Source: Acidobacteriota bacterium
GTDB taxonomy: Bacteria > Acidobacteriota > Holophagae > Acanthopleuribacterales > Acanthopleuribacteraceae
Length of the DNA: 64,000 nt
NCBI GenBank assembly: GCA_020439745.1
Contig: JAGQSC010000016.1
Location: 62,001 to 126,000 of the forward strand
Direction of reading: 5' to 3'
Shown one piece after another: positions 14,404 through 43,330 of this stretch. The stretch's first letter is position 1; every line of letters begins with the position of its first letter. A program made the position numbers and the translations under genes. Below the pieces are notes generated by a model. It was not told where the DNA came from and did no database searches. It saw only the letters and a list, made by a program, of their open reading frames with translations.

Positions 14404-14484
14404 GTTCTGTCCTTTCACATGAAGACAATCAGTCTACACATTTTTTGGCTCTACGTGAACGCGTGCGCAGGTTTTTAACGTTGA

Positions 14485-20565: not shown

Positions 20566-21801
20566 ATGGCCAAACTCACACGGCATATTGGACTTTCATT
20601 GGGCGGCGATATCTGCTGGCCTATCTGTTATGAAGAGATCATGAAACGCCTGAATCTTTCCATTCCGTACAAAGGCGATACGATTCAAGTGGCTGTTGAG
20701 CGTGTGACCATTGAACCGTTCGACTTGCGCCAATCATGCAAATACAACGTGGTGTTGGATCGATTAACGCATTGGTTTCACACATCACGCGAGTGGATCA
20801 AGAAAGCCGTCATCATGGACGACCTGTACGTGTTGAATAATCCATGGTCCATTCAATCCATGGAAAAACAAACCTCGTACTGCGCCATGATCAAGTTAGG
20901 CATGCCCATCCCTGAAACATGGCTCATTCCTCCAAAAGAACACGAGCCGACCACCGATTTGCGTCACACTTTGATGTCGTATGCAAAACTATTTGACCTT
21001 GGAAGTATTGGCGAGAGCTTGGGATATCCCGTGTTTATGAAGCCTTACGACGGTGGCGCGTGGGTGGGTGTCACAAAAATAGACGATGAACAGAAATTGC
21101 GTGCCTCCTACGAGGAGTCTGGCAAAAAGGTTATGCATATTCAAAAGGGCGTCGATCCCTTTGATCGATTCGTCCGCTGCATTGGGTTGGGTCCTCAGAC
21201 TCGTTACGTGAACTACAACCCTTCGGCAGCCCTCCATAATCGCTACGAAATCGATATCGATATTACCGACGAAGACACCGAGCTTTTGCGCGACATTACG
21301 CTTACGATCAACACGTTTTTTGGATGGGACTTCAATTCCTGTGAGTCCTTGCGTAAAGATGGTCAGTGGTTTCCCATAGATTTCGCCAATCCCTGTCCAG
21401 ACTCACAAGTGACGTCCCTGCATTACCATTTTCCCTGGATTGTTCTGGCCAACATTCGCTGGTCGGTCTTTTGTGCCGTGACGCTGCGCAAGATGCGAAG
21501 AAACCTCGACTGGGAGCCTTTCTATCAAATCGCGGCCAAGGACATGCCCTACCGAGAGCGCATCTCAGCCTACGCGGCTCTCGCAAAAGAACGCTTGCAG
21601 GCAGACCAATTCGAAGAATTCTGCGCCAAGCACCTAGGTCATCTGAACGAAGTGGCCTATGAGTTTTTTGCATCCGACATGGCCCGTGAGGCCGTGCGCA
21701 AAAAAGTAGCAGCCCTTTTCCCAGAACACGAAGTGGATGAATTTACTAACCTCTTCTGGCAACGGATTCAGTTGTGGCGTGAACGCGAATGTCAGGTCTA
21801 A
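20566..21801 (+). CDS. RimK-like ATP-grasp ligase
   Basis: A predicted ATP-dependent carboxylate-amine ligase of 411 residues. The N-terminus (about 1-95) looks like a pre-ATP-grasp domain. Then come KQTSYCAMIKLGMPIPETWLIP, where ligases normally recognise the unfolding substrate loop, GYPVFMKPYDGGAWVGV with the ATP-binding Lys, and a C-terminal metal-binding block (FNSCESL, FPIDFANPCPD) with Glu, Asp and Asn. About 110 helical residues follow. It is only distantly like the four other ATP-grasp proteins here, so it may perform a different ligation. GGAGGAG precedes the ATG. The esterase gene starts inside its 3' end. Substrates are unknown. Confidence 0.8.
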   Translation: MAKLTRHIGLSLGGDICWPICYEEIMKRLNLSIPYKGDTIQVAVERVTIEPFDLRQSCKYNVVLDRLTHWFHTSREWIKKAVIMDDLYVLNNPWSIQSMEKQTSYCAMIKLGMPIPETWLIPPKEHEPTTDLRHTLMSYAKLFDLGSIGESLGYPVFMKPYDGGAWVGVTKIDDEQKLRASYEESGKKVMHIQKGVDPFDRFVRCIGLGPQTRYVNYNPSAALHNRYEIDIDITDEDTELLRDITLTINTFFGWDFNSCESLRKDGQWFPIDFANPCPDSQVTSLHYHFPWIVLANIRWSVFCAVTLRKMRRNLDWEPFYQIAAKDMPYRERISAYAALAKERLQADQFEEFCAKHLGHLNEVAYEFFASDMAREAVRKKVAALFPEHEVDEFTNLFWQRIQLWRERECQV

Positions 21802-22547
21802 GTGAGGCAAGTTGGGTTGTAACCGCGCCCCCACTTCAACGATCTGTACGTGTTCAGAGATGGGGTTGGTGGGGCGATCCGGTGCTTCTCTTTCCCACGG
21901 CAGGGGGTGATGCCGGCGAAGTTGCTCGATTTCATCTGATTACCGCTCTAGAGCCGCTGATTTCTGCTGGACGGATTAAGGTCTATTCTGTGGACAACGT
22001 ACCCGGACAGGCACTGCTTTTTGAGGATCACCAGCCAACGGTGCTCGCCCATTTCTTCCATCAATACGCGGCCTTCGTACACGATGTGGTGCTACCCATA
22101 ATTACCCATGACTGCGATCAAATACCGGTCATCACGGCTGGCGCATCGTTGGGTGCGTTTCACGCTATGGCTCTTGCTTGTCGCTATCCGAACAAGGTCA
22201 GAGCGGCGATTTGCATGTCACCCACGTTTGAGCTGGCCCGTCTCCTAAACGGTCATCGCGATGAAAACCTGTACCTTGCCAGTCCACTGTATTTCCTAGG
22301 CGCGGCACCAGAAACTCAAGTGGCTCAGATTCGACAGCAGAAATTGATCATGGCTTTTGGCTCAGGGCCTTACGAGAATCCGCGCCGTGCATGGCAACTC
22401 TCAGACGTTATGCGACATCGGAACATACCATGCCACCTTCACCATTGGGGGCCAACCATCGGTCATGACTGGTCCTCTTGGAGAATGATGTTGCCACACT
22501 ATCTGAACCAACTGACCGAGGTTGTACCCGAGCTACAATATGCCTAA
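21789..22547 (+). CDS. Alpha/beta-hydrolase esterase between two ATP-grasp genes
   Basis: A 252-residue cytoplasmic serine hydrolase, paralogue of the 13666 gene. The nucleophile elbow is GASLGA and the catalytic His is probably in GHDWSSWR. The N-terminus WWGDPVLLFPTAGGDAGE and the segment SAGRIKVYSVD align with its paralogue. ATG at 21789 lies 13 bases inside the previous gene with no strong ribosome binding site, so translation is probably coupled. It sits between a RimK-like ligase and a second ATP-grasp ligase. It might cleave or transfer an ester or thioester intermediate, or proofread the product; this is inference. Confidence 0.83.
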   Translation: MSGLSEASWVVTAPPLQRSVRVQRWGWWGDPVLLFPTAGGDAGEVARFHLITALEPLISAGRIKVYSVDNVPGQALLFEDHQPTVLAHFFHQYAAFVHDVVLPIITHDCDQIPVITAGASLGAFHAMALACRYPNKVRAAICMSPTFELARLLNGHRDENLYLASPLYFLGAAPETQVAQIRQQKLIMAFGSGPYENPRRAWQLSDVMRHRNIPCHLHHWGPTIGHDWSSWRMMLPHYLNQLTEVVPELQYA

Positions 22548-22557
22548 GGAGTGACCG

Positions 22558-23778: not shown

Positions 23779-23803
23779 AGTTAGGAACGCTCCACGTTTC
23801 ATC

Positions 23804-24631
23804 ATGTCCGTCCGATCGCTACTGTCCAACTTGGTACCCCACTCCAGTGTCAAAGAATGGGAGAGGTTTCACCAAATAATCGCGAACAACCCTCGAGCGC
23901 TGTTACTGGCGTTAAACAGGTTTCAGAAACCCATCCTGGTGTCAGGATGCCAGCGATCTGGAACGACTGCCCTAGCTAACCTTTTGTTCCGCAGCCCGGA
24001 CATCGACGACTATCGAATTCGTGGTAACGGCGAACTTGAGGGTGCTGAAATCCTCAGTGGGATCCGTCCCTATGAACAACACCGTAGATGTGTCTTTCAA
24101 ACTACCTATTTGGACGGTCGGTTTGAAGAATACCTTTCGATGCCCAAAGACGCACGTCTCGTTTGGATGCTTCGTAACCCAGAATCTGTCATTTACTCAC
24201 TGGTCCATAATTGGGCACGAAAACCACTCGACCGACTGTTCGAGTCATGTGGATTGGATCAGTTGACTCCTGCCGAAAGCACGCGACATCGTCGACTGGG
24301 GAAATGGTCATTGTCACCTCTCACTAAGGCTTGTGCTGCCTATTTGGGCAAAACCAGCCATCTTTTTTGGATACGCGATCATCTTCCACGTGACCAGTGG
24401 GTGGCTGTTGACTATGACCACTTGGTGACGCAACAAGCATCAACGCTCAAAGCAATTTTTGAATTCTGCAATGTGTCTCTGCCCAAAGACGTTGCCACTC
24501 AACTTCATGCACGTAGCACGGCCAAACACAAGGGGTGGCGTTCAAACCAACGCGCCTACATACGCGAACGCTGCAACGATTTCTATCAGCTGGCGTCGCG
24601 AGAAACGCTTCACATGGTGCCTAACAAGTGA
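23804..24631 (+). CDS. Sulfotransferase family protein
   Basis: A predicted PAPS-dependent sulfotransferase of 275 residues. The 5'-phosphosulfate loop is SGCQRSGTTALANLLF near residue 50. The 3'-phosphate-binding region is LVWMLRNPESVIYSL near residue 125, with the Arg and Ser in the expected places. VAVDYDHLV and a basic C-terminal stretch also fit. These enzymes sulfate polysaccharides, lipids or peptides. Its place at the head of four glycosyltransferase genes points to a glycan. The ATG at 23804 is chosen because the upstream in-frame codons overlap the ATP-grasp gene. The ribosome binding site is weak. It ends in a GTGA overlap with the next gene. Confidence 0.85.
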   Translation: MSVRSLLSNLVPHSSVKEWERFHQIIANNPRALLLALNRFQKPILVSGCQRSGTTALANLLFRSPDIDDYRIRGNGELEGAEILSGIRPYEQHRRCVFQTTYLDGRFEEYLSMPKDARLVWMLRNPESVIYSLVHNWARKPLDRLFESCGLDQLTPAESTRHRRLGKWSLSPLTKACAAYLGKTSHLFWIRDHLPRDQWVAVDYDHLVTQQASTLKAIFEFCNVSLPKDVATQLHARSTAKHKGWRSNQRAYIRERCNDFYQLASRETLHMVPNK

Positions 24632-25827
24632 AGGAATTTTTGTTTTTTACAAGAGACAAATATCCAGAATTGCGTGTTGAGGTCACGGAACTCATTCTCA
24701 AAAGGCTCCCTGAATATGGTTTTTCCTTTTACTGGGTTCTTCAATCATCAGGGTCCCCAAAGATTGACGAAGAATGGGACGGCACTCACAAATCGCTGGT
24801 ATGCGCCGTAGGGGGCCGGAGTTTCATGTCGATTGCCATTAATCATCTGTTGGACGTGTGCAATGACTTGTGGGCCCTGCTCTTCTTAAGGAAAAGGCGT
24901 TATGCTGCCATTCTAGTGAAGGATAAATTCCTCATCGCTACCCTTTTGACCTTGGTTTCAATGGTTACGTCGCGACGACTTATTTTTTGGCTATCGTTCC
25001 CGTTCCCAGAGGCCTGGAGTACCTCCAATCACAACTCCTGGACCTTTCACTTATTCAACCGAATTCGTGGGCCCATCGCAAGAAGGTGCCTGTACCGGTT
25101 CATTCTTCCACGCGCCACTCATGTTTTTGCTCAAAGCGAGAAGATGAAGCAGGACATTATCGAACAAGGAATCAATCCGCAGAAGATCACAGCCATACCC
25201 ATGGGCGTCCCAATGGTTGACCTAAAACTCCCCTATCCAACTCACAATGTCACTAAGCCTGACAATCAGATTTGGCTCACCTATTTGGGCACGCTCTCGA
25301 AGCTCAGGCGGCTAGACATTTTGATTCACGGAATAGCCCTATCAAATCCGAAACCCAACATGAAATTCCTCCTGATCGGCGATTCACAGGACATTCGCCA
25401 CACCCGCGAACTCGAGTCACTCGTCAACGAGCTAAACCTGCAACAAACCGTCATTTTCAAAGGGTTCATGGATAGACCCATCGCGTGGTCCTATGTCTCC
25501 CAGAGCGATCTGTGCTTTTCTCCATATGACACCAACCCCGTACTCGCCAGTACTTCGCCCACCAAGCTCATTGAATACATGGCACTGGAAAAGCCAGTCA
25601 TTGCAACCGAACATCCAGAACAAAGAGCGATCATCCAGAAAAGCGGTGCAGGATACCTTGTGCCTTACGAGGCCAATGCGCTTGCTGAGGTCATCAACAT
25701 CGCATTGAAGGACCCAGAAGTCCTGCGGTCTAAGGGCAAACAGGGACGAGCATGGGTCACCAAAAACCGAGACTATTCCACCATCGCCGATGATCTGGCG
25801 ATCTGCCTCCAGCGAATCGTTTCATGA
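24628..25827 (+). CDS. Glycosyltransferase family 4 protein
   Basis: A 399-residue GT-B retaining glycosyltransferase, probably cytoplasmic or peripheral to the inner membrane. The N-terminal half binds the acceptor. Two hydrophobic stretches near residues 75-125 could touch the membrane. The C-terminal half has the nucleotide-sugar fold: IWLTYLGTLSKLRRLD, NMKFLLIGDS, then TKLIEYMALEKPVIATE, which holds the EX7E-like acidic pair. The start is GTG at 24628, overlapping the previous stop as GTGA, and the stop overlaps the next gene as ATGA. Donor and acceptor are unknown. Confidence 0.85.
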   Translation: MKEFLFFTRDKYPELRVEVTELILKRLPEYGFSFYWVLQSSGSPKIDEEWDGTHKSLVCAVGGRSFMSIAINHLLDVCNDLWALLFLRKRRYAAILVKDKFLIATLLTLVSMVTSRRLIFWLSFPFPEAWSTSNHNSWTFHLFNRIRGPIARRCLYRFILPRATHVFAQSEKMKQDIIEQGINPQKITAIPMGVPMVDLKLPYPTHNVTKPDNQIWLTYLGTLSKLRRLDILIHGIALSNPKPNMKFLLIGDSQDIRHTRELESLVNELNLQQTVIFKGFMDRPIAWSYVSQSDLCFSPYDTNPVLASTSPTKLIEYMALEKPVIATEHPEQRAIIQKSGAGYLVPYEANALAEVINIALKDPEVLRSKGKQGRAWVTKNRDYSTIADDLAICLQRIVS

Positions 25828-27005
25828 ACAAGAAACCGCGCATCGCATTCTTCACTTGGATTTATCCTAACTGCCCAGGATACAACGACTTCAACAATCG
25901 CGTGCAGTCGCTTAGCGAGGACTTTGAGGTTACTGTCGTATCAAATACTCCTGATGCACGCGTCCATTTTGGCCTGCCACAAGAACGATTCCATCATATA
26001 CCGTGTATCCGTGAGCCTTGGCCTATCCTCACACATTACCTCGTCCAAACCAATCGTTACCTGATGAATACCAAGCCATTTGGCGTCTTTTTTTGCAACA
26101 GTTTCTTTGCGCCGTTCCTGCCTTTTCTGAAACATCCAAGGACCGCACTGTACTGGAATGAACACCCCAGTCATGCATACCCTGCGAAGTCAAGGTGGTC
26201 AGCACTTTCACCGATTGTGCTTCCCCGCAATGGCGCCATGCGAGCGCTGTACTACAAGGGTGCACGCGCGGCCAATGTGGTTATGCCTATCGGCGAACGA
26301 CTCAAAGACGATCTCATCAAACATCGTGTCCCAACAGAACGAATCGTGTGTGTTGCGATGGGAGTAGACGCTCGCTTTCAGGTTGCAGGCTCGCGCGAAC
26401 CCTACCGTGGGGATCGTCCCATTCACTTGGTGTATGTGGGATCCATTTCTGAAGATCGGGGCCGTAACATCATGCTCGAGGCACTCGCTCAAGCCAAATC
26501 TGAAGGTGCCCAATTTAGATTGACTCTGGTGGGTGGGCCACCCCAAGAACTGGCTATCTGTCATCATCTGGCACAGTCCCTTAACATCCGTTCAGACGTG
26601 AGTTTGCACGACGCAGTTCCCGGAAATCGCATTCCCGACTATCTGTTACGAGCAGACATGGGTATTTGTATCTGGGCCAACAAGCCCCATTGGAACTACA
26701 ACCCACCTACAAAGCTCTTTGAATATCTGGTTTCAGGACTGCCCGTGTTCGCTAGTCGCATCAAGACACACACAGATACGATCACAGATGGCTATAACGG
26801 TATTGTTTTTGATTACGACGTGGGCTCTATGAAAGAGGCACTACTCAATATTTGGCATTCAAGGGAAAAACTACCTGAGCTTTCAGCCCATGCCGCCGAA
26901 TCGGGTGCGGATTATTTGTGGCCCATGGTCAAACATCGTTTCATAAACGCCATCAAATCCAAATGGAGGATTGAGGAAAACGGGGTTAGCAATGATAGGA
27001 TTTGA
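25824..27005 (+). CDS. Glycosyltransferase family 4 protein
   Basis: A 393-residue GT-B enzyme. The N-terminal domain begins RIAFFTWIYPNCPGYNDF. The C-terminal donor domain contains IHLVYVGSISEDRGRN, FRLTLVGGPPQE and TKLFEYLVSGLPVFAS with the conserved Glu. It ends with a basic segment. The start ATG overlaps the preceding TGA (ATGA), and the stop overlaps the ATG of the following gene (TGATG). It is part of the four-glycosyltransferase run, so it probably adds one sugar of the same repeat unit. Confidence 0.85.
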   Translation: MNKKPRIAFFTWIYPNCPGYNDFNNRVQSLSEDFEVTVVSNTPDARVHFGLPQERFHHIPCIREPWPILTHYLVQTNRYLMNTKPFGVFFCNSFFAPFLPFLKHPRTALYWNEHPSHAYPAKSRWSALSPIVLPRNGAMRALYYKGARAANVVMPIGERLKDDLIKHRVPTERIVCVAMGVDARFQVAGSREPYRGDRPIHLVYVGSISEDRGRNIMLEALAQAKSEGAQFRLTLVGGPPQELAICHHLAQSLNIRSDVSLHDAVPGNRIPDYLLRADMGICIWANKPHWNYNPPTKLFEYLVSGLPVFASRIKTHTDTITDGYNGIVFDYDVGSMKEALLNIWHSREKLPELSAHAAESGADYLWPMVKHRFINAIKSKWRIEENGVSNDRI

Positions 27006-28216
27006 TGCACTCTTGTACGCATGGTATTTGGGAAGCATTGCGACGACGAATACTTATCAACACCAGTTCATTTCCTAGACCTAACGATCAAGGCGGGCCT
27101 CGTTTTGTCCGGGATTTGGTGTATGCATTGCAAAAACATTTTGACGTCACCGTGCTCGCGCCATCGTTTGCCGACTGTGATGCCAAGGACGATCTTGATG
27201 TGCGTCGGTACCCTTATTTCTGGCCCCGATCATGGCAAAAGCTCGCCCACGGCCACGGCATGCCCACGAACCTAAAAACCTCCAAGCTGGCCTTGATTCA
27301 GGCCCCGTCACTCATGGCCTGCCAAAGCCTCAATATCAGAAAGACTGCGCGTGAACCGTTTGATTTGGTGAATTCACACTGGCTCGTCCCGCAAGGTCTG
27401 TGCTTCGCTATGGCGCGGAGCAAACTTCCCCACGTCGTCACGGTACATGGCGGCGACATCAACATCTTGTCACGTGTCCCGGGCGGACACATGATCTCAA
27501 AAAAAGTGGCGAAACACACCAACGCGTTTATTGTGGTTGGTTCAGAACTGACCCGTAAGCTCGAACACTTAATCGGCACACCATTTGTGCATTCAGTGCG
27601 CCCCATGGGCTACGACCCGGATATGTTCTTTCAAAAAGGGCCCGTGTCGACGACACCCCATTTTCTATATGTTGGGCGCCTCGTTGAAAGCAAAGGTCCC
27701 CAGGATTTATTGCGTGCCTTTGCTAATTTGAAACACCAAATCGACGGGCATGTGTCGTTCATTGGAGATGGGCCTTTGGCCGGTGACTTGAAACGTGAAG
27801 CGAGCGAGCTGGGCATTTCGAGCCGAGTTGCATTCCTTGGACGGCAAGAACATGCAACCGTAGCCACAGCCATCTCGTCGTGTACCGCGCTTATCGTACC
27901 GTCACGGGCCGCCAAGACCGGCGTTGCCGAGGGTTTTCCCACGGTCATCATGGAAGGATTGGCAGGAGGTGCGGTTGTTATTGCTTCCGATGTAGGCAGT
28001 ATCAGCGATGTACTGATTCATGGCAAGAATGCTTTGCTTTTTGACTCAAGAGATGTTCAACAGTTAACTTCTCTACTTAGCCAAGCGGCCCGTGATGAGC
28101 TCACATCTATTCGAGATGCAGCCGCTCGAACGGCCGCAAAACACACCTGGGAAAGTATTGCCAATCACTATTCAGATGTCTTTGAAAGCGTTTGGGCCAA
28201 GGCCAATTCAAATTGA
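27005..28216 (+). CDS. Glycosyltransferase family 4 protein
   Basis: A 403-residue GT4 enzyme. Visible are LINTSSFPRPNDQGGPRFV with the N-terminal glycine-rich acceptor-side loop, VVTVHGGDINIL, FLYVGRLVESKGPQDLL, VSFIGDGPL and GVAEGFPTVIMEGLAGGAVVIAS. The last is a textbook EGFP-x4-E motif for the retaining mechanism. ATG at 27005 is preferred over TTG at 27002. Both overlap the previous stop, and AGGA lies upstream. The stop overlaps the next gene's TTG start (TTGA). Confidence 0.87.
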   Translation: MHSCTHGIWEALRRRILINTSSFPRPNDQGGPRFVRDLVYALQKHFDVTVLAPSFADCDAKDDLDVRRYPYFWPRSWQKLAHGHGMPTNLKTSKLALIQAPSLMACQSLNIRKTAREPFDLVNSHWLVPQGLCFAMARSKLPHVVTVHGGDINILSRVPGGHMISKKVAKHTNAFIVVGSELTRKLEHLIGTPFVHSVRPMGYDPDMFFQKGPVSTTPHFLYVGRLVESKGPQDLLRAFANLKHQIDGHVSFIGDGPLAGDLKREASELGISSRVAFLGRQEHATVATAISSCTALIVPSRAAKTGVAEGFPTVIMEGLAGGAVVIASDVGSISDVLIHGKNALLFDSRDVQQLTSLLSQAARDELTSIRDAAARTAAKHTWESIANHYSDVFESVWAKANSN

Positions 28217-29361
28217 AATTATTGCAGGTGTGTGCCTACTATCCTCCCCGCATCGGCGGTGTTGGCGAAATGGTGAGGCAGCTACACCGTAACTATCTGG
28301 CCTGCGGGATCCATTCATGGGTCCTCACGTCTAAAGTAGGTGCACACGACCCTCAGATCATTGAGTTAGGATCCACACCGCTGAGTTTTGTACTAGGGAT
28401 CATGAGCATGACGCGCCGTACCGCAGGTTTCGATGTGGTCCATTGCCATGCCGGTGAAACCGTGTTGCTGCCACTACTGATGAAGATATTGGGTATCAAG
28501 ACACCCATAATTGCGACCCTACACATTCACCCCCCTACCTATCGAAAAGCATGCAGACCTTATCGAATTGGCAACATTCAAATAAAGATGGCTTTCATTC
28601 CCAATCTCAAATTGCACTTAATGACAGCGATGCAATCCATGGGACAACGCCTGATGAGATGGTTGGCAGACGAGACAGTCTATGTCTGCCATGCAACCGC
28701 TCGACAATCGTTGGGTTACGGCCTCCAAAAAAACTCCGTTGTCCACAACGGCACCACACTGCCGGTACCAAAAGACACGCTAAGTTCACCCTCCGATATT
28801 CTATTTGTAGGTTCTGACAATTTCTGTAAACGTCCCGCAGTGTGTCTTTACGTGTTGGCTAAAATCCTAATGTCTCGTCCAGAGACCACCTTGAGGTTTG
28901 TGGGCGTGTCGCAGCATCCTGAGCTCAAACGCTTGATCACTTTATGGCAGCTCGAGGATCGAGTTTCTTTCGAAGGAAACATTGCGCCCGAAGATGTGCA
29001 TGGTCTCTACCAGAGCACAAAGATTTTGCTCATGCCTTCCAGCTATGAGGGCCACCCCATGGCCCTACTCGAGGCCGGTCTTCACGGTGTCACAACTGTT
29101 GCATCCGAGGTAGGGGGGATCCCTGAAATCCTTGAAGATGGATTGACTGGATTTGTGGTTCCCCCCAACGATATTGAGAAAATGACCGCGTGCTGCGTAC
29201 GTTTGCTCGAAGACCCAGCTCTCAGGCATACCATGGGAAAGGCCGCACGAACGCGAATTGAAGAGAACTTCTTGATCACACATACAGCTGCGGCTTACAA
29301 AGACATCTATGGCCAATTATCTGGGCGTGTTCTTGCGGAAAAAGAAGATTGCGATCATTGA
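28213..29361 (+). CDS. Glycosyltransferase family 4 protein
   Basis: A 382-residue GT4 enzyme, last of the four. The N-terminus has CAYYPPRIGGVGEMVRQL (glycine-rich loop). The donor domain has DILFVGSDNFCKRPAV, TLRFVGVSQHPE, then SSYEGHPMALLEAGL with the EGxP-x4-E pair, and GGIPEILEDGLTGFVV. I take TTG at 28213, which overlaps the previous stop as TTGA like the other junctions in this run. A TTG at 28192 is possible. Its last 45 bases overlap the convergent flippase gene. Confidence 0.84.
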   Translation: MKLLQVCAYYPPRIGGVGEMVRQLHRNYLACGIHSWVLTSKVGAHDPQIIELGSTPLSFVLGIMSMTRRTAGFDVVHCHAGETVLLPLLMKILGIKTPIIATLHIHPPTYRKACRPYRIGNIQIKMAFIPNLKLHLMTAMQSMGQRLMRWLADETVYVCHATARQSLGYGLQKNSVVHNGTTLPVPKDTLSSPSDILFVGSDNFCKRPAVCLYVLAKILMSRPETTLRFVGVSQHPELKRLITLWQLEDRVSFEGNIAPEDVHGLYQSTKILLMPSSYEGHPMALLEAGLHGVTTVASEVGGIPEILEDGLTGFVVPPNDIEKMTACCVRLLEDPALRHTMGKAARTRIEENFLITHTAAAYKDIYGQLSGRVLAEKEDCDH

Positions 29362-30795
29362 CCGACAGGCCACCAAGCTGATCCACCGAAATCGCACCGC
29401 AAACACGCCAAACAAGAGCGCGACGCCCATTAAACCCAGCACCCTCATTACCATTGAATCCAAAAACAGGTAGACACTGAACCCAGCCAAATTGGAACTT
29501 ACGATCAACAGGAAAGGTGTGATTGACAGGCGTATTTCGTCGCGTCGAAGCCCAATCACTACAATCATTAACGAAATCACGGGCACCAATGCATTGACAA
29601 CCACAATCGCCGTGGCGGCTTGGTGGCGCTCCAAAATTAGCCAAATAATCCCGTAAAAGAGCAATGTCATTACCAACTGAATCCCACTCAAAACGGCGAT
29701 AGCGCGACCCCTAGCTTGAATGTTAAAGAGCCCGTTATTAATGAGAACCGCAATCTGAAACGGCACTGAAGCCAAGTAGATCGCCACGAACGCAAACACC
29801 GGCGCGAATTCTGTGCCGAGTAGTAATGCAACAAAATCCCGGCCAATTGCCAACCACCCCAGAAACAGGATCGAGGCACCCGCGGCACTCACGCGGTTCA
29901 TGGTATCTAACCACATCCTCAATCGAGTCAATTGAGCGGAGGCTACAAGTTCAGACATCACGGGCAAAACGCCCCGAAAAACGTTCTGCCAAATAGCCCT
30001 AATGCTGGATACAAGCGTGACGGCAATGGCAATGTGCCCCGCCATTTTGACGTCACACAAGAGCGCCACCAGGTACACCGAAAGCGAATCCCGCAGGGCC
30101 GAAGAAAGCGTGCCAACGTGACCCATTGCCAAGAAGGACAAATAGGGCTTCAAGAGTCCGAGTTGGCGTAGATCCAATGACACCTCCATGAGTCGTCTGA
30201 GCATGCGGTACGACCACACAACCAACAGCGCGAAAAATAAGCTCAAGGCCCAAAAAACTGCATCGACTCCAGCCCAGAGGTACGCGACACAAACTACCAG
30301 TAACGAGCCAGCCGACCGGATCAAGTCAAGGATCACGCCAGAACTTGCCTGTCCGATGGGCGTAAACAACACACGCGTCGATTCCAGAAAGAGACGCGTC
30401 AAAGCAAAAAGCGCAACCCACATCACCCACCAGTGTGATTCCGTGGTGACACGCGAGAACCACAAAAACAAACCGAAAGCCACGACGCAGGAAATAATGG
30501 CTGATCCCGTAAGCGTGGCCGAAACAAAACATTCCGATTCTCTTTTCAGCCCCTGTTGCCATAACGGCGACAGCCTCAGCACGACCACTCGCGAAAAACC
30601 TACACCGGAAGCTAGCATCCAAAATCCGATCAAGGCAACCACAGCTGCATACTGGCCATAATCCGAGACTCCTAGCACACGTGGTATCAATACACCGTTC
30701 ACAGCCAAAATCACAAATGTGCCTATGGATCCCATCATTAGGACACGCGCGTTATGGGCTGCCCTTTTGGTTTCATCATTGTTTTTTGCGTTCAA
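29317..30795 (-). CDS. Wzx-like oligosaccharide flippase (MOP superfamily)
   Basis: A polytopic inner-membrane protein of about 492 residues with 12-14 hydrophobic segments and the polysaccharide-flippase N-terminus (VLIPRVLGVSDYGQYAAVVALIGFW). It should move lipid-linked sugar repeat units across the inner membrane, the step following the four glycosyltransferases encoded opposite. No Wzy polymerase or chain-length regulator is visible in the window. Starts are ambiguous: TTG at 30795 has GAGG close upstream, while TTG at 30858 would add 21 residues without a clear site. It overlaps the last glycosyltransferase gene tail to tail. Confidence 0.82.
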   Translation of the reverse strand: MNAKNNDETKRAAHNARVLMMGSIGTFVILAVNGVLIPRVLGVSDYGQYAAVVALIGFWMLASGVGFSRVVVLRLSPLWQQGLKRESECFVSATLTGSAIISCVVAFGLFLWFSRVTTESHWWVMWVALFALTRLFLESTRVLFTPIGQASSGVILDLIRSAGSLLVVCVAYLWAGVDAVFWALSLFFALLVVWSYRMLRRLMEVSLDLRQLGLLKPYLSFLAMGHVGTLSSALRDSLSVYLVALLCDVKMAGHIAIAVTLVSSIRAIWQNVFRGVLPVMSELVASAQLTRLRMWLDTMNRVSAAGASILFLGWLAIGRDFVALLLGTEFAPVFAFVAIYLASVPFQIAVLINNGLFNIQARGRAIAVLSGIQLVMTLLFYGIIWLILERHQAATAIVVVNALVPVISLMIVVIGLRRDEIRLSITPFLLIVSSNLAGFSVYLFLDSMVMRVLGLMGVALLFGVFAVRFRWISLVACRSMIAIFFFRKNTPR

Positions 30796-30997
30796 GTGAC
30801 CTCGTTGATCTAACAGTGTAGGACCGCCCGGCAAACGTGGCAATGAGTACTGGAACAATTTGGCCGTTGAGCCAGAATTTTCAAAAAACGTATTTTTTTC
30901 AGTTGCATATCCGCTGGACAGACACTATCTTCATGAGCAGCCGATCACAAAATGAAATGAAAAGACGTCAAAAGCGACGACGACTTGAGTTAAGATA

Positions 30998-31010
30998 TTG
31001 GTTTAACCAA
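30998..31010. promoter_or_regulatory. Perfect 13-nt palindrome upstream of the fibre gene
   Basis: TTGGTT-T-AACCAA lies 59 bases before the GTG start at 31070, within the AT-rich divergent region that also serves the flippase gene (30796-31069). Its size and symmetry suit an operator for a dimeric regulator. I found no convincing -35/-10 pair beside it. Apart from this and the Shine-Dalgarno AGGAGG, the region holds no other feature I can support. Confidence 0.35.
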
Positions 31011-31069
31011 ACAAGTATTTGGGGTCGAGTGAGTGGGGATACTTCACACGAACAGCTAGGAGGATCATT

Positions 31070-32689
31070 GTGACAACATTCAAGCCAGGAAAGGCCATTG
31101 CATGGGTGCTGGCGGCAGCCGCCAGTCTGGTGATGGCCCAAGATAAAGGCAAGGACCTTGCCGAGACGATTATGAACGCAGACATCATCTATTTTGAGAC
31201 ATTGGGTGATTACGACACGATTGAATTGACGGTCAGCGGGCAGGGCAATCTTTTCCATCGCACCTACGAAGGCTGGGACGTCCCTGCCATTAACCTCAAC
31301 GAGAGCATGCTTGCAGACGGTGAATACACGTTTGAGTTGCGTGCGACACCCAAATGGAACAGGGCTGACAAAACGTCGGTTACTGAGAACGGTGACCAGC
31401 GAGTGGGCCTCGCGGTGGCTCCGGGAACCAATTTCGTACAAAGCGGCTATTTTCGCGTCGTCAACGGACAGTTCGTACTGCCTCAAGAGGAAGGCGTATT
31501 GACGCCAGTTGCACAAAGCCAGCCTCATAACACGACTCACCACTCTGCCAAAGCGGCTGATGGTGAAATCGACCAAGACGACGATGGCTCCGACGATCAA
31601 GTGATCGCCGACGACCTGATCGTGGATGGCAGTGCATGTGTGGGCTTGGATTGTGTGAATGGTGAGAGCTTCGGCTTTGACACGATTCGTCTGAAAGAAA
31701 ACAACCTGCGGATTAAGTTTCAAGACACTTCATCTTCCGCCAGTTTTCCATCGCGCGACTGGCAATTGACTGCAAACGATTCGGCCAATGGCGGTGCTAA
31801 CAAATTCTCCATCGACGACATTGATGGTGGCCGAACTCCCTTCACCATTGAAGCAGGGGCCCCCAGCCATTCACTTTATGTGGATGACGGTGGTCGAATG
31901 GGTCTGGGAACGTCAACACCTGTCACTGACATCCATGTCGTTTCAGGCAACACCCCTACCATGCGTTTGGCACAAGACGGATCATCAGGTTTCACACCGC
32001 AGACCTGGGATGTAGCGGGCAATGAGACGAACTTCTTCGTTCGCGATGCCACAAACGGTTCGACACTTCCGTTGCGAATCCGACCGTCTGCCCCTTCGAA
32101 CGCGATCTTCATTGATACGGACGGCGACATTGGGATGGGGACCTCTTCGCCCAGTGCGTCGCAACACATCAATCGCTCGAACGGAACGGCGAAATTGTTG
32201 ATCCAAGATACGACTGCTTCGTCAACCTTCCTTTCAATGATTGAAATGAACAACGCCAGTGGTGGTGGCGTGGCATTCCGTATGGTCAACGGATCTGACA
32301 CGATCGATTTCAATAACACAAGCAGCGAGTTCCGGGTGAATTTCAACGACGGTGACAACCAAGAAATGGCGCTTGATGCCGATGGTAATTTGGAAATCGA
32401 TGGAACTCTGACCACCATGGTTCCGAAGACAGTTCCCGATTACGTCTTCGAGGCAGACTACGCTTTGATGCCAATGGCTGATCTAGAGCATTTCGTCAAA
32501 ACGAACAAGCATTTGCCTGGGATCCCCTCCCAAGCTGACGTTCAAGCTGCCAACTACAAGATGAACATGGTTGAGCTTCAGTTCCAATTGCTTGAGAAGA
32601 TTGAAGAGTTAACGCTCTACACCATTGATCAACAAAAAACCATCCAGATGTTGCACCAGCGCTTGGAACAGATGGAGCAAAACCGTTAA
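31070..32689 (+). CDS. Secreted fibre-like protein with S74-related C-terminal region
   Basis: A 539-residue exported protein. GTG at 31070 is fixed by AGGAGG. The signal peptide covers about residues 1-23 (AIAWVLAAAASLVMA). An N-terminal beta-rich domain (about 30-150) is followed by an Asp-rich linker and then repeated segments ending in RMGLGTSTP and DIGMGTSSP, the G-x-G-T-x-x-P pattern seen in tail-fibre and adhesin stalks. The C-terminus (VPDYVFEADYALMPM, KHLPGIPS, LLEKIEELTLYTIDQQ) resembles the region following intramolecular-chaperone fibres of Bacteroidota and ends in a coiled coil. The peptidase S74 catalytic Ser-Lys dyad is not evident. It is probably a surface or matrix protein. 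Confidence 0.72.
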   Translation: MTTFKPGKAIAWVLAAAASLVMAQDKGKDLAETIMNADIIYFETLGDYDTIELTVSGQGNLFHRTYEGWDVPAINLNESMLADGEYTFELRATPKWNRADKTSVTENGDQRVGLAVAPGTNFVQSGYFRVVNGQFVLPQEEGVLTPVAQSQPHNTTHHSAKAADGEIDQDDDGSDDQVIADDLIVDGSACVGLDCVNGESFGFDTIRLKENNLRIKFQDTSSSASFPSRDWQLTANDSANGGANKFSIDDIDGGRTPFTIEAGAPSHSLYVDDGGRMGLGTSTPVTDIHVVSGNTPTMRLAQDGSSGFTPQTWDVAGNETNFFVRDATNGSTLPLRIRPSAPSNAIFIDTDGDIGMGTSSPSASQHINRSNGTAKLLIQDTTASSTFLSMIEMNNASGGGVAFRMVNGSDTIDFNNTSSEFRVNFNDGDNQEMALDADGNLEIDGTLTTMVPKTVPDYVFEADYALMPMADLEHFVKTNKHLPGIPSQADVQAANYKMNMVELQFQLLEKIEELTLYTIDQQKTIQMLHQRLEQMEQNR

Positions 32690-32710
32690 ATCGGCACGCC
32701 TAAAAAGCGA

Positions 32711-32741
32711 AAGGCCCGAGCATCGCTCGGGCCTTTTTTTT
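32711..32741 (+). terminator. Rho-independent terminator
   Basis: AAGGCCCGAG (32711-32720), loop CATCG, and CTCGGGCCTT (32726-32735) form a perfect 10-bp GC-rich stem continuing into a run of eight T. It begins 21 bases after the stop codon of the fibre gene, and also lies just downstream of the convergent CBM48 gene end at 32766. This is the clearest terminator in the window. Confidence 0.95.
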
Positions 32742-32765
32742 GATGCTATGAAAAGCGCTGGCCGG

Positions 32766-33122
32766 TTAGGCTTGCACTTTCAGCACACTGTTGAATGAAC
32801 CAAACTGGTTTGGAGACCAGCCGTCTGCATTGGGATCCGGCAACCAGCGTCCATTACTCACGAATTTGTATTCATAGTCACCGCTTTCAAGCATCAGACT
32901 AACCTGATATTCACCGGCACCGGTTTCTTTCATCGCCTTGTCGCTGGGATTCCAGTCGTTGAACGTTCCTGCGACGAATACAGCACTACCCGGTTCGGCC
33001 TTAAAGTGAAGGGTAACCTTCTTGCGTTTGGCTTTGGCTGTGGTTTTTTTCTTGGCTACCGGCTCTTTCTTGGCAGTCGTTGTTGTCTTTTTTGTTTTTG
33101 TCTTTTTCGTGGCGTCCGCCAT
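32766..33122 (-). CDS. CBM48/AMPK-beta-type glycogen-binding protein with Lys-rich tail
   Basis: A 118-residue two-part protein. Residues 1-35 are almost only Lys, Thr and Ala (KKTKTKKTTTT, AKRKK), like the tails of bacterial histone H1-like proteins. Residues about 36-118 are a CBM48/AMPK glycogen-binding domain: VTLHFKAEPGSAVFVAGTFN, DWNP, YEYKFVSNGRW, then NQFGSFNSVLKV. Such domains bind alpha-1,4-glucans. The start at 33122 is fixed by GAGGAG. In-frame codons further upstream lack one. It is divergent from the GT5 glycogen-synthase-like gene, which supports a glucan link. The cationic tail could bind nucleic acid, anionic glycan or the ligase products; this is inference. Confidence 0.85.
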   Translation of the reverse strand: MADATKKTKTKKTTTTAKKEPVAKKKTTAKAKRKKVTLHFKAEPGSAVFVAGTFNDWNPSDKAMKETGAGEYQVSLMLESGDYEYKFVSNGRWLPDPNADGWSPNQFGSFNSVLKVQA

Positions 33123-33260
33123 TTTGAGGGCTCCTCTATTGGGCTTTTTGAACGAGAACAGTTCCTCGTTCAAAATCAACCCGTTAGGATAACCAAAACC
33201 CCATCGAAAGTCCACGAGAATAGCTGATTTTCTAATAAATAGGCCTATTTCATGCGACGT

Positions 33261-33290
33261 TTGGCGGATTCGCCACCAGTAAGCTATAAT
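33261..33290 (+). promoter_or_regulatory. Promoter with overlapping inverted repeat, GT5/ATP-grasp operon
   Basis: TTGGCG (33261-33266) and TATAAT (33285-33290) are separated by 18 bases, a good sigma-70 match, and lie about 65 bases before the ATG at 33355. The sequence TGGCG-GATT-CGCCA (33262-33275) is an inverted repeat covering the -35 element, so it could be an operator. The divergent region 33123-33354 also has to hold the promoter of the CBM48 gene, for which I see no clear elements. Confidence 0.5.
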
Positions 33291-33354
33291 CCGCCTACAG
33301 GATAAGGTCTTTCAAAACAGGGACTTCTGGGTTGTTTTGCAGCGAGGTGGCGTC

Positions 33355-34860
33355 ATGACTGCAGCTCGGCGACGCGAAAAGAAACGCATCCTCATCGTTA
33401 CGCCTGAGATTACATATTTACCCAAAGGCATGGGCAACTTAGCCAACCACTTGCACGCGAAAGCTGGCGGCTTGGCCGATGTCTCAGCCACACTGGCCGC
33501 CACCCTATACGAACAGGGCGCGGATGTTCACGTGGCCCTGCCACATTACCGCCAAATGTTCCATGTGAATGTGGGCCATTTCATCAACGAGGAACTGCGC
33601 ATCTACAAAAGCAAGATGCCCGAAGAACGCATTCACCTGGCTGAAGACCGCATTTTTTACTACCGTGAAAAAGTCTACGACGACTACGCAGCCATCAATA
33701 TGAAACTGGCATTGGTTTTCCAACGCGAAGTCATCAATAACATCATCCCTCGCGTCAATCCGGACATCATCCACTGCAATGATTGGATGACCGGGCTCAT
33801 ACCTGCCATTGCTCGACGGCAAAACATCCTATCCTTGTTCACCGTCCACAACATCTTCTCTTTGAAAACAAACCTAGAACACATTGAAGAGGTGGGTATC
33901 GATAGCCGCGAGTTTTGGCGCTACTTGTATTTTGACAGGGCACCCCAGTCATTTTCTGATTCGTACAAAACCAACTATGTGGATTTTCTCGCTTCAGGTA
34001 TCTTTGCAGCCGATTTCATCAACACGGTGAGCCCCAACTTCCTTTTGGAAATCGTGGACGGCCACCACAGTTTCGTCAAAGACCACTTGCGACGCGAGAT
34101 CGTCAACAAATATCACGCCGGCCTGGCGGCGGGAGTCTTAAATTCTCCGGACCCCAAATACAACCCCCGAACGGACAAAGCCCTGATCCGGCGGTACAGT
34201 GACGAGACCTACGCGGAGGGAAAACGCGAGAACAAGGTCAAACTGCAACAGTTTCTCGGACTGGATGTGGATCCCAATGCGCCCTTGTTTTACTGGCCAT
34301 CGCGACTGGATCCTATCCAGAAGGGTTGCCAACTGCTTGCCGATATTCTCTTTTCCATTGTTTCTGACTACGCCCGTTACAAGCTGCAGGTGGTGATGGT
34401 CGCCAACGGGCCCTTCCAGACCCATTTCAACGAAATCGTCGAACTTCATGATGTGCCCAACCGCATCTCTGTGGTCGACTTTGATGAGCGCCTCTCCCAT
34501 GTCGCATATGCAGCCTCTGATTTTCTATTTATGCCCTCACTTTATGAGCCCTGCGGGTTACCTCAGATGATCGGACCCATCTACGGCACTTTGCCTGTGG
34601 CAAGAGATACAGGTGGTATACACGATACGGTGCAGCACCTCAATGTTGCGGCCAACAAGGGCAACGGTTTCCTGTTCAAGCACTACGATGCTAGAGGATT
34701 ACGCTGGGCCGTGGACCAGGCAATGGCCTTTCACCTATTGCCGAAAACGGTTAAGGCGACGCAGATTCAGCGAATCATGAAAGAAAGTCTAGATCAATTC
34801 AACCATTCAGTGACTGCCAAGCGCTATATTGAAATCTACCGGAAAATATTGAACGTATAG
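33355..34860 (+). CDS. GT5 glycogen/starch synthase-like glycosyltransferase
   Basis: A 501-residue GT-B enzyme of the ADP-glucose-type glycogen synthase family (usual length about 480). The N-terminal donor-binding KxGGL motif is present as KAGGLADVS near residue 36. HCNDWMTGLIPA and FTVHNIF follow. The C-terminal half has PSRLDPIQKGCQLL, and the catalytic Glu block is YEPCGLPQM near residue 398 followed by ARDTGGIHDTV. Key residues look intact, so it should be active. GlgC, GlgB and GlgP are absent from the window and three ATP-grasp ligase genes follow, so its product may not be storage glycogen. GAGGTGG precedes the ATG at 33355. Confidence 0.87.
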   Translation: MTAARRREKKRILIVTPEITYLPKGMGNLANHLHAKAGGLADVSATLAATLYEQGADVHVALPHYRQMFHVNVGHFINEELRIYKSKMPEERIHLAEDRIFYYREKVYDDYAAINMKLALVFQREVINNIIPRVNPDIIHCNDWMTGLIPAIARRQNILSLFTVHNIFSLKTNLEHIEEVGIDSREFWRYLYFDRAPQSFSDSYKTNYVDFLASGIFAADFINTVSPNFLLEIVDGHHSFVKDHLRREIVNKYHAGLAAGVLNSPDPKYNPRTDKALIRRYSDETYAEGKRENKVKLQQFLGLDVDPNAPLFYWPSRLDPIQKGCQLLADILFSIVSDYARYKLQVVMVANGPFQTHFNEIVELHDVPNRISVVDFDERLSHVAYAASDFLFMPSLYEPCGLPQMIGPIYGTLPVARDTGGIHDTVQHLNVAANKGNGFLFKHYDARGLRWAVDQAMAFHLLPKTVKATQIQRIMKESLDQFNHSVTAKRYIEIYRKILNV

Positions 34861-34870
34861 TGAGGAACCT

Positions 34871-36091: not shown

Positions 36092-36109
36092 ATTGAAAGG
36101 AAGCTGCTT

Positions 36110-37327
36110 TTGAACGTCATCTTTGTAGCCCCTTATTTCTTGCCAGCTACCGTTCGCTTCATAGACGCCGTGGCAGGGCTGCCCAACGTACGAGCGGGAC
36201 TGATCAGTCAGGATCCCTTGACCTTGTTACCTGCGGACATACGCAGTAAGCTGAAAGCCCACCACCGTGTTCAAAACGGGATGGACCCCAGGCAAATCCT
36301 CCAAGCAGCGCGCGCATTGTCCGCAGAGCTTGGCCCGGTACAGCGACTGTTTGGTGCGCTGGAGGACCTTCAAGTAGCCTTGGCACAGGTTCGCGAGGCC
36401 CTTTCCATACCAGGCTTAAGCGTTGAGGCTGCCAACAATTTCCGCGACAAATCCACCATGAAATCCGTACTGCGATCTCAGGGGGTACCGTGTGCCCGTC
36501 ATTGCTTGGCGCACACACCCAACGAAGCGATGGCATTTGTGTCGGAAGTCGGATTTCCCATCGTCATTAAGCCCCGTGCAGGCGCCGGTGCCAGAAATAC
36601 CTTTCAAGTCGATGACGCGGCGGCCTTGAAGCAGGTGCTCAGCGGGCTCCCTCCCAACCATCACGATCCCACCATGATGGAGGAGTTTATTCAAGGTGAG
36701 GAGCATTCCTTTGACTGTATCTCTATCCGTGGCGAAGTTGTGTGGCATTCCATCACGCGCTACTATCCCACGCCACTGGAAGTGCTCAAGAACCCGTGGA
36801 TCCAATGGTGTGTTTTGCTACCCCGGGAAATCGATGCGCCGGAATTCGATCCAATCCGACTACACGGTCAACGTGCGCTCAAAGCGCTCGGCATGGGCAC
36901 CGGACTGAGCCACATGGAGTGGTTTCGGCGAAGGGACGGAAGTGTCGCCATTTCTGAAGTCGCAGCCAGACCGCCCGGCGCACAAATCACCACATTGCAC
37001 AGCGTGGCTCACGACATGGACCTCTTTAAGGCCTGGGCCAAACTCATGGTGTTCGAGACGTTTGACATACCGCAAAGGAAATATGCTGCTGGCGTCGCAT
37101 TCCTGAGAGGCAGCGGCTACGGCCGTGTCAAACGGGTAGAAGGATTGGAGCAGGCTCAAAGAGATGTTGGATCACTGGTTATTGAACATAAATTGCCACA
37201 GGCTGGCCAGTCGGCCGGGAGTGGGTACGAAGGACAAGGGTACGTAATTTTGCGTCATACCGATACCGAAGTGGTCAAACAGGCGCTTAAGAAGCTCATT
37301 ACGACCGTTCGAGTGGTAATTGAATGA
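36110..37327 (+). CDS. ATP-grasp carboxylate-amine ligase, copy C
   Basis: A 405-residue paralogue, closest to copy D: both have the RYYPTPLEV block followed by NPWIQWCVLLPR, the THMEWFRRRD-type block (SHMEWFRRRD here) and the RPPGAQI end of the metal site. Other landmarks are FRDKSTMKSVL, GFPIVIKPRAGAGARN (ATP loop) and MEEFIQGEE. The C-terminus has YAAGVAFLRGSGYGRVK and SGYEGQGYVILRH. The start is TTG at 36110 with AAGGAAG upstream, 18 bases after copy B. It probably joins a carboxylate and an amine through an acylphosphate, as known for the superfamily. Confidence 0.85.
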   Translation: MNVIFVAPYFLPATVRFIDAVAGLPNVRAGLISQDPLTLLPADIRSKLKAHHRVQNGMDPRQILQAARALSAELGPVQRLFGALEDLQVALAQVREALSIPGLSVEAANNFRDKSTMKSVLRSQGVPCARHCLAHTPNEAMAFVSEVGFPIVIKPRAGAGARNTFQVDDAAALKQVLSGLPPNHHDPTMMEEFIQGEEHSFDCISIRGEVVWHSITRYYPTPLEVLKNPWIQWCVLLPREIDAPEFDPIRLHGQRALKALGMGTGLSHMEWFRRRDGSVAISEVAARPPGAQITTLHSVAHDMDLFKAWAKLMVFETFDIPQRKYAAGVAFLRGSGYGRVKRVEGLEQAQRDVGSLVIEHKLPQAGQSAGSGYEGQGYVILRHTDTEVVKQALKKLITTVRVVIE

Positions 37328-37337
37328 AGGATGTCCC

Positions 37338-38561
37338 ATGACCAAAAACGTTGTCTTCCTGGCCCCGCATCTGATGCCCGGTACCTTGGTGTTTCTCAGA
37401 GCAACCGCGCAATTGCCCAACATTCAACTCGGTATCATCAGCCATCACCCCGCTTCAGCCATTCCACCTGATCTGAAGCCAAACATCGAAGCACATTACC
37501 AGATCCAGAATGCGCTGGACCCTATACAGGTGGCAAAAGCCGCCCAATTCATAGGCAGCAGATTGGGGGGAATAAGTTGCCTGTTGGGTTATCTGGAGGA
37601 ATTGCAAGTCACTTTGGGTGAAGTTAGGGACATGTTGGGCATACCCGGTCTTGGCAAACAGGCATCGCTCAACTTCCGTGACAAATCGCAAATGAAAACG
37701 CTGCTGCGCCAACATGGGCTTCCTTGCGCAGCACATGCAGTGGCTCACACTGCCAAAGAGGCCATTGATTTTTGTCAACAGACTGGGTTCCCGGTGGTCG
37801 TTAAGCCACCAGCCGGACTCGGCACACGCAACACCTATGAGATCAAGTCACCCTCCGAGTTGAAAAACTACTTGGCCAAACATCCCCCATCAAATGGTAG
37901 TCCTGTGATGCTGGAAGAATTTGTGGTGGGGAGTGAACACTCATTCGAATCCATGTGCCGCAACGGACAGACACTGTGGCACAGCCTAACGCGTTACTAC
38001 CCTACGCCCCTCGAAGTGATGCAGAACCCCTGGATACAGTGGTGTGTCCTGCTTCCAAGAGATATTGACGGGCCCGAATACGCGGATATTCGAGCGGTCG
38101 CAGCACGAGCCAACCAAGTCTTGGGTATGCAAACAGGGCTCACGCACATGGAATGGTTTCGCAGACGCGATCATAGCATCGCCATATCTGAAGTGGGTGC
38201 TCGGCCTCCAGGTGCCCAAATCATGAAGATCATCTCATACGCACATGACGTTGACTTCTATCAATCCTGGGCCAATCTCGTAGTTCACGGACAATTTCAG
38301 CCCCCGGAACGCAAGTATGCCGTCGGTGCAGCCTACTTGAGGGGCCAAAAATCGGGTCGTGTCAAGGCGATACACGGACTGGATAAGGCGCAGTCAGAAA
38401 TCGGCGGGCTGGTAGTTGATGTACAACTCCCCCAAAAGGGACAATTGAAATCAAGTAGTTACGAAGGTGAGGGTTATGTACTACTGCGTCACGAAGATAC
38501 CGAAACGGTCAAGCACGCCCTAAAACGATTAATCACGCTGGTCCAAGTGGAAATGGAATAG
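37338..38561 (+). CDS. ATP-grasp carboxylate-amine ligase, copy D
   Basis: A 407-residue paralogue, clearly the sister of copy C across its whole length, so probably a recent tandem duplicate. Landmarks: NVVFLAPHLMPGT, FRDKSQMKTLL, GFPVVVKPPAGLGTRN (ATP loop), LEEFVVGSE, THMEWFRRRD and SEVGARPPGAQI. ATG at 37338 has AAGGA upstream and lies ten bases after the copy C stop. It is the last gene of the GT5/ATP-grasp operon. The next gene, a hybrid kinase, has its own promoter-like site. Substrates are unknown. Confidence 0.86.
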   Translation: MTKNVVFLAPHLMPGTLVFLRATAQLPNIQLGIISHHPASAIPPDLKPNIEAHYQIQNALDPIQVAKAAQFIGSRLGGISCLLGYLEELQVTLGEVRDMLGIPGLGKQASLNFRDKSQMKTLLRQHGLPCAAHAVAHTAKEAIDFCQQTGFPVVVKPPAGLGTRNTYEIKSPSELKNYLAKHPPSNGSPVMLEEFVVGSEHSFESMCRNGQTLWHSLTRYYPTPLEVMQNPWIQWCVLLPRDIDGPEYADIRAVAARANQVLGMQTGLTHMEWFRRRDHSIAISEVGARPPGAQIMKIISYAHDVDFYQSWANLVVHGQFQPPERKYAVGAAYLRGQKSGRVKAIHGLDKAQSEIGGLVVDVQLPQKGQLKSSSYEGEGYVLLRHEDTETVKHALKRLITLVQVEME

Positions 38562-43317: not shown

Positions 43318-43330
43318 CCTATTAGTCACC

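Follow-up and report, generated by a model that had tools for sequence, protein, structure and literature searches.

A recurrent cassette of ATP-grasp ligases, esterases and an S51 hydrolase tied to alpha-glucan synthesis genes in Acidobacteriota, Planctomycetota and other bacteria

We analyzed a stretch of 64,000 nucleotides from an Acidobacteriota bacterium of the family Acanthopleuribacteraceae (assembly GCA_020439745.1, contig JAGQSC010000016.1, positions 62,001 to 126,000), hereafter the window, whose genes are named by their start position within it. The window carries a gene cassette that recurs in distant phyla and consists of eight core families, namely a GT5 glycogen/starch-synthase homologue, four families of ATP-grasp ligase, an S51 hydrolase and two esterases (E1 and E2), with GlgC often alongside. 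The cassette is tied to alpha-glucan synthesis genes, its distribution shows it to be one evolutionary unit, and the eight families almost certainly form one pathway. A preliminary description of this DNA had drawn the unit as 20566-38561; the true unit begins upstream, at 15326, with the S51 gene followed by the Fes-like esterase gene at 16264, both of which had been overlooked. The genes that it did list, the five ATP-grasp ligases, the esterase, GT5 and the CBM48 protein as well as the sulfotransferase, the four GT4s and the flippase, were recovered from open reading frames (ORFs) and domain searches at or near where it had put them. The ligase starts at 20566, 22558, 34871 and 36110 stood, and the fifth ligase, given as starting at 37338, spans 37320-38561. 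The core genes of the window are as follows.

15326..16270, + strand: S51 peptidase-like hydrolase (cyanophycinase/PepE superfamily), core family S51; PF03575 31.6 bits, cut-off 23.9
16264..17394, + strand: E1, predicted Fes-like/CBM48-CE1-like esterase with an N-terminal E-set domain; PF00756 91 bits
20566..21801, + strand: ATP-grasp ligase alpha, marker of module A, a divergent protein of RimK/Ddl-like type; fold search and conserved residues
21789..22547, + strand: E2, alpha/beta-hydrolase esterase; PF00756 32.8 bits
22558..23778, + strand: ATP-grasp ligase beta-1, marker of module B, resembling L-amino-acid ligases; PF02222/PF02786 above cut-off
33337..34860, + strand: GT5 glycogen/starch-synthase homologue; PF08323 117 bits
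34871..36091, + strand: ATP-grasp ligase beta-2; PF13535 30.8 bits
36110..37327, + strand: ATP-grasp ligase beta-3, copy 1; PF02222 46.1 bits
37320..38561, + strand: ATP-grasp ligase beta-3, copy 2, same clade as 36110; PF02222 39.2 bits

Results

The cassette was defined in two ways, by mapping the window genes onto related loci and by grouping every neighbouring ORF into clusters with no names assigned beforehand. Both approaches gave the same short list of families, and only the core families recur in at least 7 of the 33 neighbourhood labels, which amount to about 31 distinct genomes, given that one label (L034) duplicates the genome G095 and that L036 and L037 are contigs of a single metagenome-assembled genome (MAG). 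The phylum labels of MAGs were taken from database records and are possibly wrong in places. We considered a cassette linked when genes of the 20566 and 22558 types lie within 20 kb of each other, and all eight families were present in 20 of the 31 loci of this kind. E1 was found in all 31, S51 in 29, E2 in 28, GT5 in 26, beta-3 in 24, beta-2 in 23 and GlgC in 10; as 20 of the 31 loci were fetched for marker linkage, marker counts there follow by construction, while those of the other genes do not. The complete cassettes come from Acidobacteriota, Planctomycetota and Pseudomonadota, with a partial one in an Actinomycetota genome, and the cassette is often compact, at roughly 9-16 kb. Carriers include Planctomycetes bacterium Poly30, Acidobacteria bacterium Mor1 and Metallococcus carri; the last of these, an actinobacterium, also has a diverged set (L170:665-3600, with 20566 at 43% identity and the esterases at 30-34%) away from its 22558/S51/E1 locus.

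The two marker ligases, 20566 and 22558, recur together far above chance. Among 396 Acidobacteriota genomes, 21 hold an orthologue of 20566 and 19 an orthologue of 22558, all 19 falling within the 21; the two genomes with 20566 and without 22558 are G196 (1130 contigs, 92% complete) and G353 (81% complete). These 20566 orthologues share 60-79% identity and are clearly separated from a family at ~30%, to which ~100 more Acidobacteriota matches belong; the scores are bimodal, and we left these matches out as a different, shorter family. The pattern was replicated in 392 Planctomycetota genomes, with 20566 in 42, 22558 in 40 and both in 39 (the exceptions being G543, G741, G803 and G447). Fisher tests returned 2e-30 for Acidobacteriota and 5e-49 for Planctomycetota, and because they ignore shared ancestry, the claim rests on the patchy spread of the pair over many families and on its replication in the second phylum. 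Moreover, in four genomes of the window's family (G003-G006) both markers are present though they lie on different contigs or megabases apart, and 20566 was present in eight of eight more distant genomes fetched via 22558, off the fetched stretch in three of them. A Paenibacillus genome with just a distant ATP-grasp relative has no 20566. The genomes G003-G006, of 10-12 Mb, moreover have additional copies of the beta-type ATP-grasp genes at unlinked sites (L048-L050, L055, L056, L058, L059).

The preliminary description had placed the ligases on both sides of a sugar operon, GT5 and an esterase in one pathway, and recurrence across distant genomes bears this out: the two halves were not seen to occur independently in most genomes, and the marker ligases co-occur even where they are unlinked. 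The test that it proposed, recurrence of GT5, esterase and sulfotransferase genes in the neighbourhood, was strongly positive for the first two and failed for the sulfotransferase, which is found in one of the 31 linked cassettes. Other recurring neighbours (OPT transporter, arginine deiminase, methionine synthase, SufBD) are limited to a few genomes, and no exporter or precursor-synthesis gene recurs among the cassette neighbourhoods clustered without naming. In three related Acidobacteriota (L126/L130/L132, that is G095, G071 and G329), the GT5-ligase module has genes for an arginine deiminase and an OPT oligopeptide transporter at its flanks, which is a weak hint at arginine or peptide involvement. 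Plasmid-borne spread was rejected, as 72,556 plasmid records hold no orthologue of 20566 and the 22558 matches among them are distant ATP-grasp proteins only. An anti-phage defence system was likewise rejected, the eight cassette proteins having no match to PADLOC models.

GT5 occurs in 20 of the 33 neighbourhood labels and usually directly adjoins beta-1 or beta-2. Two lineages with 28-30% mutual identity occupy this slot (33337-34860 in the window versus L037:8480-9955), the window type being found in family f1 and the GlgA type elsewhere. The common cassette GT5, represented by L037, scores 533.7 bits and lies over the GlgA cut-off. The KAGGL (KxGGL), R323/K329 and EPCG motifs of GT5 are invariant. 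GH77 or GH13 genes lie near a few more cassettes. Elsewhere in the window genome we found an alpha-glucan phosphorylase (833 bits, over cut-off) together with GlgB-like (309.8 bits, cut-off 577) and debranching-type (306.5 bits, cut-off 364.15) proteins.

The four L-amino-acid-ligase-like proteins of the window, the beta ligases, exceeded the cut-offs of Pfam ATP-grasp models, and 20566 was marginal in Pfam (PF07478, 21.4 bits versus a cut-off of 24). The AlphaFold model of 20566 is of modest confidence (mean predicted local distance difference test [pLDDT] 61.6, predicted template modelling score [pTM] 0.67); a Foldseek search with it returned, at E<=0.001, ATP-grasp matches only, namely D-Ala-D-Ala ligases and the graspetide cyclases MdnC and MdnB. 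Over 30 relatives of 20566, 112 positions are near-invariant, including K159, E260, D272 and N275, and we take the protein to be an ATP-grasp ligase, as its modelled fold suggests, despite the marginal Pfam score. Among 69 beta proteins the ATP-grasp Lys/Glu/Arg set (K112, K152, E190, E268, E280 and R284) is nearly invariant. They form three well-supported clades, each represented in Acidobacteriota, Pseudomonadota, Actinomycetota and Planctomycetota, with 16 members in beta-2 and 15 in beta-3. When compared with the PDB, 22558 matched L-amino acid ligase 4wd3 (E=7e-17) and 36110 an L-amino acid ligase (E=1.4e-16). The LAL_C2 domain (PF18603) scored 23.4 bits in 36110 and 24.7 bits in 37320, below its cut-off of 29.4, and no NCBIfam ligase model exceeded its cut-off. 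By sequence, the beta ligases appear nearest to dipeptide-forming L-amino-acid ligases, and ATP-dependent dipeptide formation is a prediction only.

On the hydrolytic side, the nucleophile S208 and H136 of the S51 protein are invariant in 24 relatives. S120 and H226 of E2 are also invariant. E1 matched an enterochelin esterase in the PDB (E=4.5e-15), and its model (pLDDT 86) aligned with template modelling (TM) scores that reached 0.78 against Fes and were ~0.6 against feruloyl esterases of the CBM48-CE1 type, with the CE1 fold, the conserved catalytic Ser and His and the N-terminal E-set domain all present. Against NF007758 it reached 116.6 bits (cut-off 222), and we regard it as a family-level relative, not an equivalog, and as a predicted esterase. 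The core cassette proteins have no signal or membrane segment by hydropathy.

Finally, we compared the layout of the window with that of G001, a Holophagae bacterium of the same genus (contig JAJCXM010000035.1). The features that surround or interrupt the core genes in the window are these.

12692-13633, - strand: ADP-ribosylglycohydrolase, upstream of the cassette here and in G001 too
13666..14418, - strand: second copy of the E2 esterase family, divergent from the cassette; PF00756 49.6 bits
17440..20520, + strand: Reg_prop/Y_Y_Y sensor kinase inside the cassette, genus-specific and not core; Pfam
23779..32700: inserted block, outside the cassette, with the sulfotransferase, four GT4s, flippase (- strand) and repeat/tail protein
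23741-24631: sulfotransferase, real start probably 23804
24628, 25824, 27002 and 28192: starts of the four GT4 genes
29317-30858, - strand: flippase-like protein
31019-32689: next to the sugar block, a repeat protein without a Pfam match whose C-terminus looks tail-fibre-like by eye
32766..33215, - strand: stand-alone AMPK1-type glycogen-binding CBM48 protein; PF16561 46.7 bits, cut-off 26.8

The gene order in G001 is S51, E1, kinase, 20566, 22558, CBM48 (- strand), GT5, 34871, 36110 and 37320, so that the 22558 orthologue directly adjoins the CBM48 gene and the sulfotransferase/GT4/flippase block is absent between them. No relative of the sulfotransferase was found at E<=1e-5 in six other genomes of the family. 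The block and the cassette overlap in GC content and in GC content at third codon positions (GC3), so that composition gives no separation, and the case for an insertion therefore rests on synteny. Judged by gene order, the block (~23.8-32.7 kb) is an insertion that interrupts the cassette and is unrelated to it; the alternative, block loss in G001, would demand loss in every other cassette too. The preliminary description had counted these sugar genes in the pathway, a claim that we abandon in view of the contiguous G001 cassette and the family genomes. That the sulfotransferase seems to overlap the 22558 ligase is probably a start-codon artefact, there being a second Met at 23804.

The CBM48 protein has a 68% identical orthologue at the equivalent position in G001, and among linked cassettes it occurs only in these two. 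The esterase copy at 13666 has an orthologue in G001 (79% identical), and G001 lacks the 21789 copy. Reg_prop sensor kinases, together with an HD-GYP protein, lie within (17440-20520) and after (38638-45313) the cassette of the window; a gene related to the 17440 kinase (46% identical) is present at the equivalent position in G001 only. As G001 has similar regulators at equivalent positions, regulation of the cassette may be genus-specific.

Discussion

Our best reading, which we hold tentatively, is that the cassette directs the cytosolic synthesis and turnover of an alpha-glucan-linked amide or ester conjugate, the product being a prediction. GT5, using ADP-glucose from GlgC where GlgC is present, would make a glucan or alpha-glucoside. 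Each of the four ATP-grasp families would form one specific amide or ester bond via an acyl phosphate, and together they would assemble a chain, of amino acids or short and peptide-like, to be joined to the glucan. The S51 hydrolase and the two esterases would trim or release this chain, with the E-set domain of E1 perhaps serving to recognise the glucan. This would yield an aminoacylated or peptidylated alpha-glucan, serving as a carbon-plus-nitrogen reserve or a modified glycogen. We favour this reading because of the frequency of GT5 (26/31) and GlgC (10/31) in linked cassettes, the GH77/GH13 genes nearby, the L037 GT5 scoring over the GlgA cut-off, the CBM48 protein and the likeness of E1 to Fes and to CBM48-CE1 esterases.

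Several observations weigh against it. The GT5 of the window reaches 279.8 bits against TIGR02095 (GlgA), below the cut-off of 328.45, and no GlgC over cut-off was found in the window genome (best 47 bits versus 424.9); for both reasons the donor of this GT5 may not be ADP-glucose. Many Acidobacteriota hold the glucan-side and the S51/esterase-side modules apart, and E2 has no informative solved relative in the PDB. Moreover, four different ligases are as compatible with a defined small molecule as with a polymer.

Such a small molecule is possible, if doubtful. The four ligases would build an oligopeptide-like amide chain that GT5 caps with one or a few glucoses, and the esterases and S51 hydrolase would mature or recycle a natural product, an osmolyte or a metal carrier. 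The presence of four distinct ligase families, each conserved in its own right, suggests that four defined bonds are made, the beta ligases are closest to dipeptide-forming enzymes, and E1 in its overall fold is closest to the siderophore esterase Fes. However, a common GT5 that scores as an ordinary GlgA, with GlgC adjoining in 10 of 31 cassettes, fits a polymer better, and neither an exporter nor a precursor-synthesis gene recurs. We therefore favour a decorated glucan over a small glucosylated peptide-like metabolite.

It is improbable that the ligase, esterase and S51 genes act on a metabolite of their own and that GT5 and GlgC are housekeeping glycogen genes which merely adjoin them. The five of 31 linked cassettes without GT5, the two lineages that share its slot and the S51-E1-alpha module found away from GT5 in many Acidobacteriota are in keeping with this idea, but GT5 is one of the few recurring families, with a usual place beside beta-1 or beta-2, and the compact cassettes retain it in Planctomycetota, Pseudomonadota and Acidobacteriota alike. 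We give very little weight to the notion that GT5 starts a glucan on a peptide primer supplied by the ligases, as a bacterial counterpart of glycogenin: it would agree with the alpha-glucan link and with bacterial glycogen being made without a glycogenin homologue (PMC11046441), but GlgA and GlgE can start chains unaided (PMC11046441) and priming needs neither two esterases nor a peptidase. Least credible of all is a sulfated surface glycoconjugate decorated with amino acids, in whose pathway the sulfotransferase, GT4s and flippase would act, for although these genes are interleaved with the cassette, mostly on the same strand, in this single genome, the synteny with G001 and the scarcity of the sulfotransferase rule it out as a shared product.

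The decorated-glucan reading can also be set against known systems. The beta ligases share ATP-grasp architecture and catalytic residues with L-amino acid ligases (RizA-like 4wd3, BL00235, BacD) and dapdiamide synthase, but they match these over partial length, form several paralogous families and always accompany S51 and esterase genes, and usually GT5. The cassette has a GlgA-type GT5, often with GlgC adjoining, in common with the GlgC-GlgA pathway, in which the ligases, S51 and esterases have no place. Cyanophycin synthetase and cyanophycinase likewise combine ATP-grasp amide ligation with an S51 hydrolase in a store-and-release logic; in contrast, the cassette has separate ligases of ~406 amino acids instead of a fused ATP-grasp/Mur-ligase synthetase, with a glucan synthase and esterases added. 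A cyanophycin system as such was rejected, since there is no synthetase (best TIGR02068 score 41.6 bits versus 850). E1 shares fold and domain order with Fes and the CBM48-CE1 feruloyl esterases, with ~18-24% identity in structural alignments, but it belongs to a cytosolic cassette without siderophore or xylan genes.

Iyer, Aravind and colleagues reportedly surveyed ATP-grasp amidoligase neighbourhoods by comparative genomics in 2009, and the cassette belongs to the same comparative-genomic class of ATP-grasp clusters. We found no published description of the eight-family combination in the open full-text literature, which did not cover that 2009 survey, and as far as found the combination appears to be undescribed, its novelty being provisional. 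In the part of its text considered here, a review from 2024 on prokaryotic alpha-glucan enzymes makes no mention of ATP-grasp, esterase or peptidase proteins (PMC11046441), and a report of cyanophycinase and enterochelin esterase as separate genes acquired by fungi through horizontal transfer is unrelated to the cassette (PMC3612039).

Some 5% of the sampled Acidobacteriota and ~11% of the sampled Planctomycetota carry the eight-family pathway, for which we found no product described. It is conceivable, though on balance rather unlikely, that they share a widespread, hitherto unrecognised class of polymer, an alpha-glucan with covalently bound amino acids or short peptides that four ligases write and the S51 hydrolase and esterases erase, as a joint store of carbon and nitrogen. 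If the glucan link is true, covalent amino-acid chemistry would be added to a textbook storage polymer.

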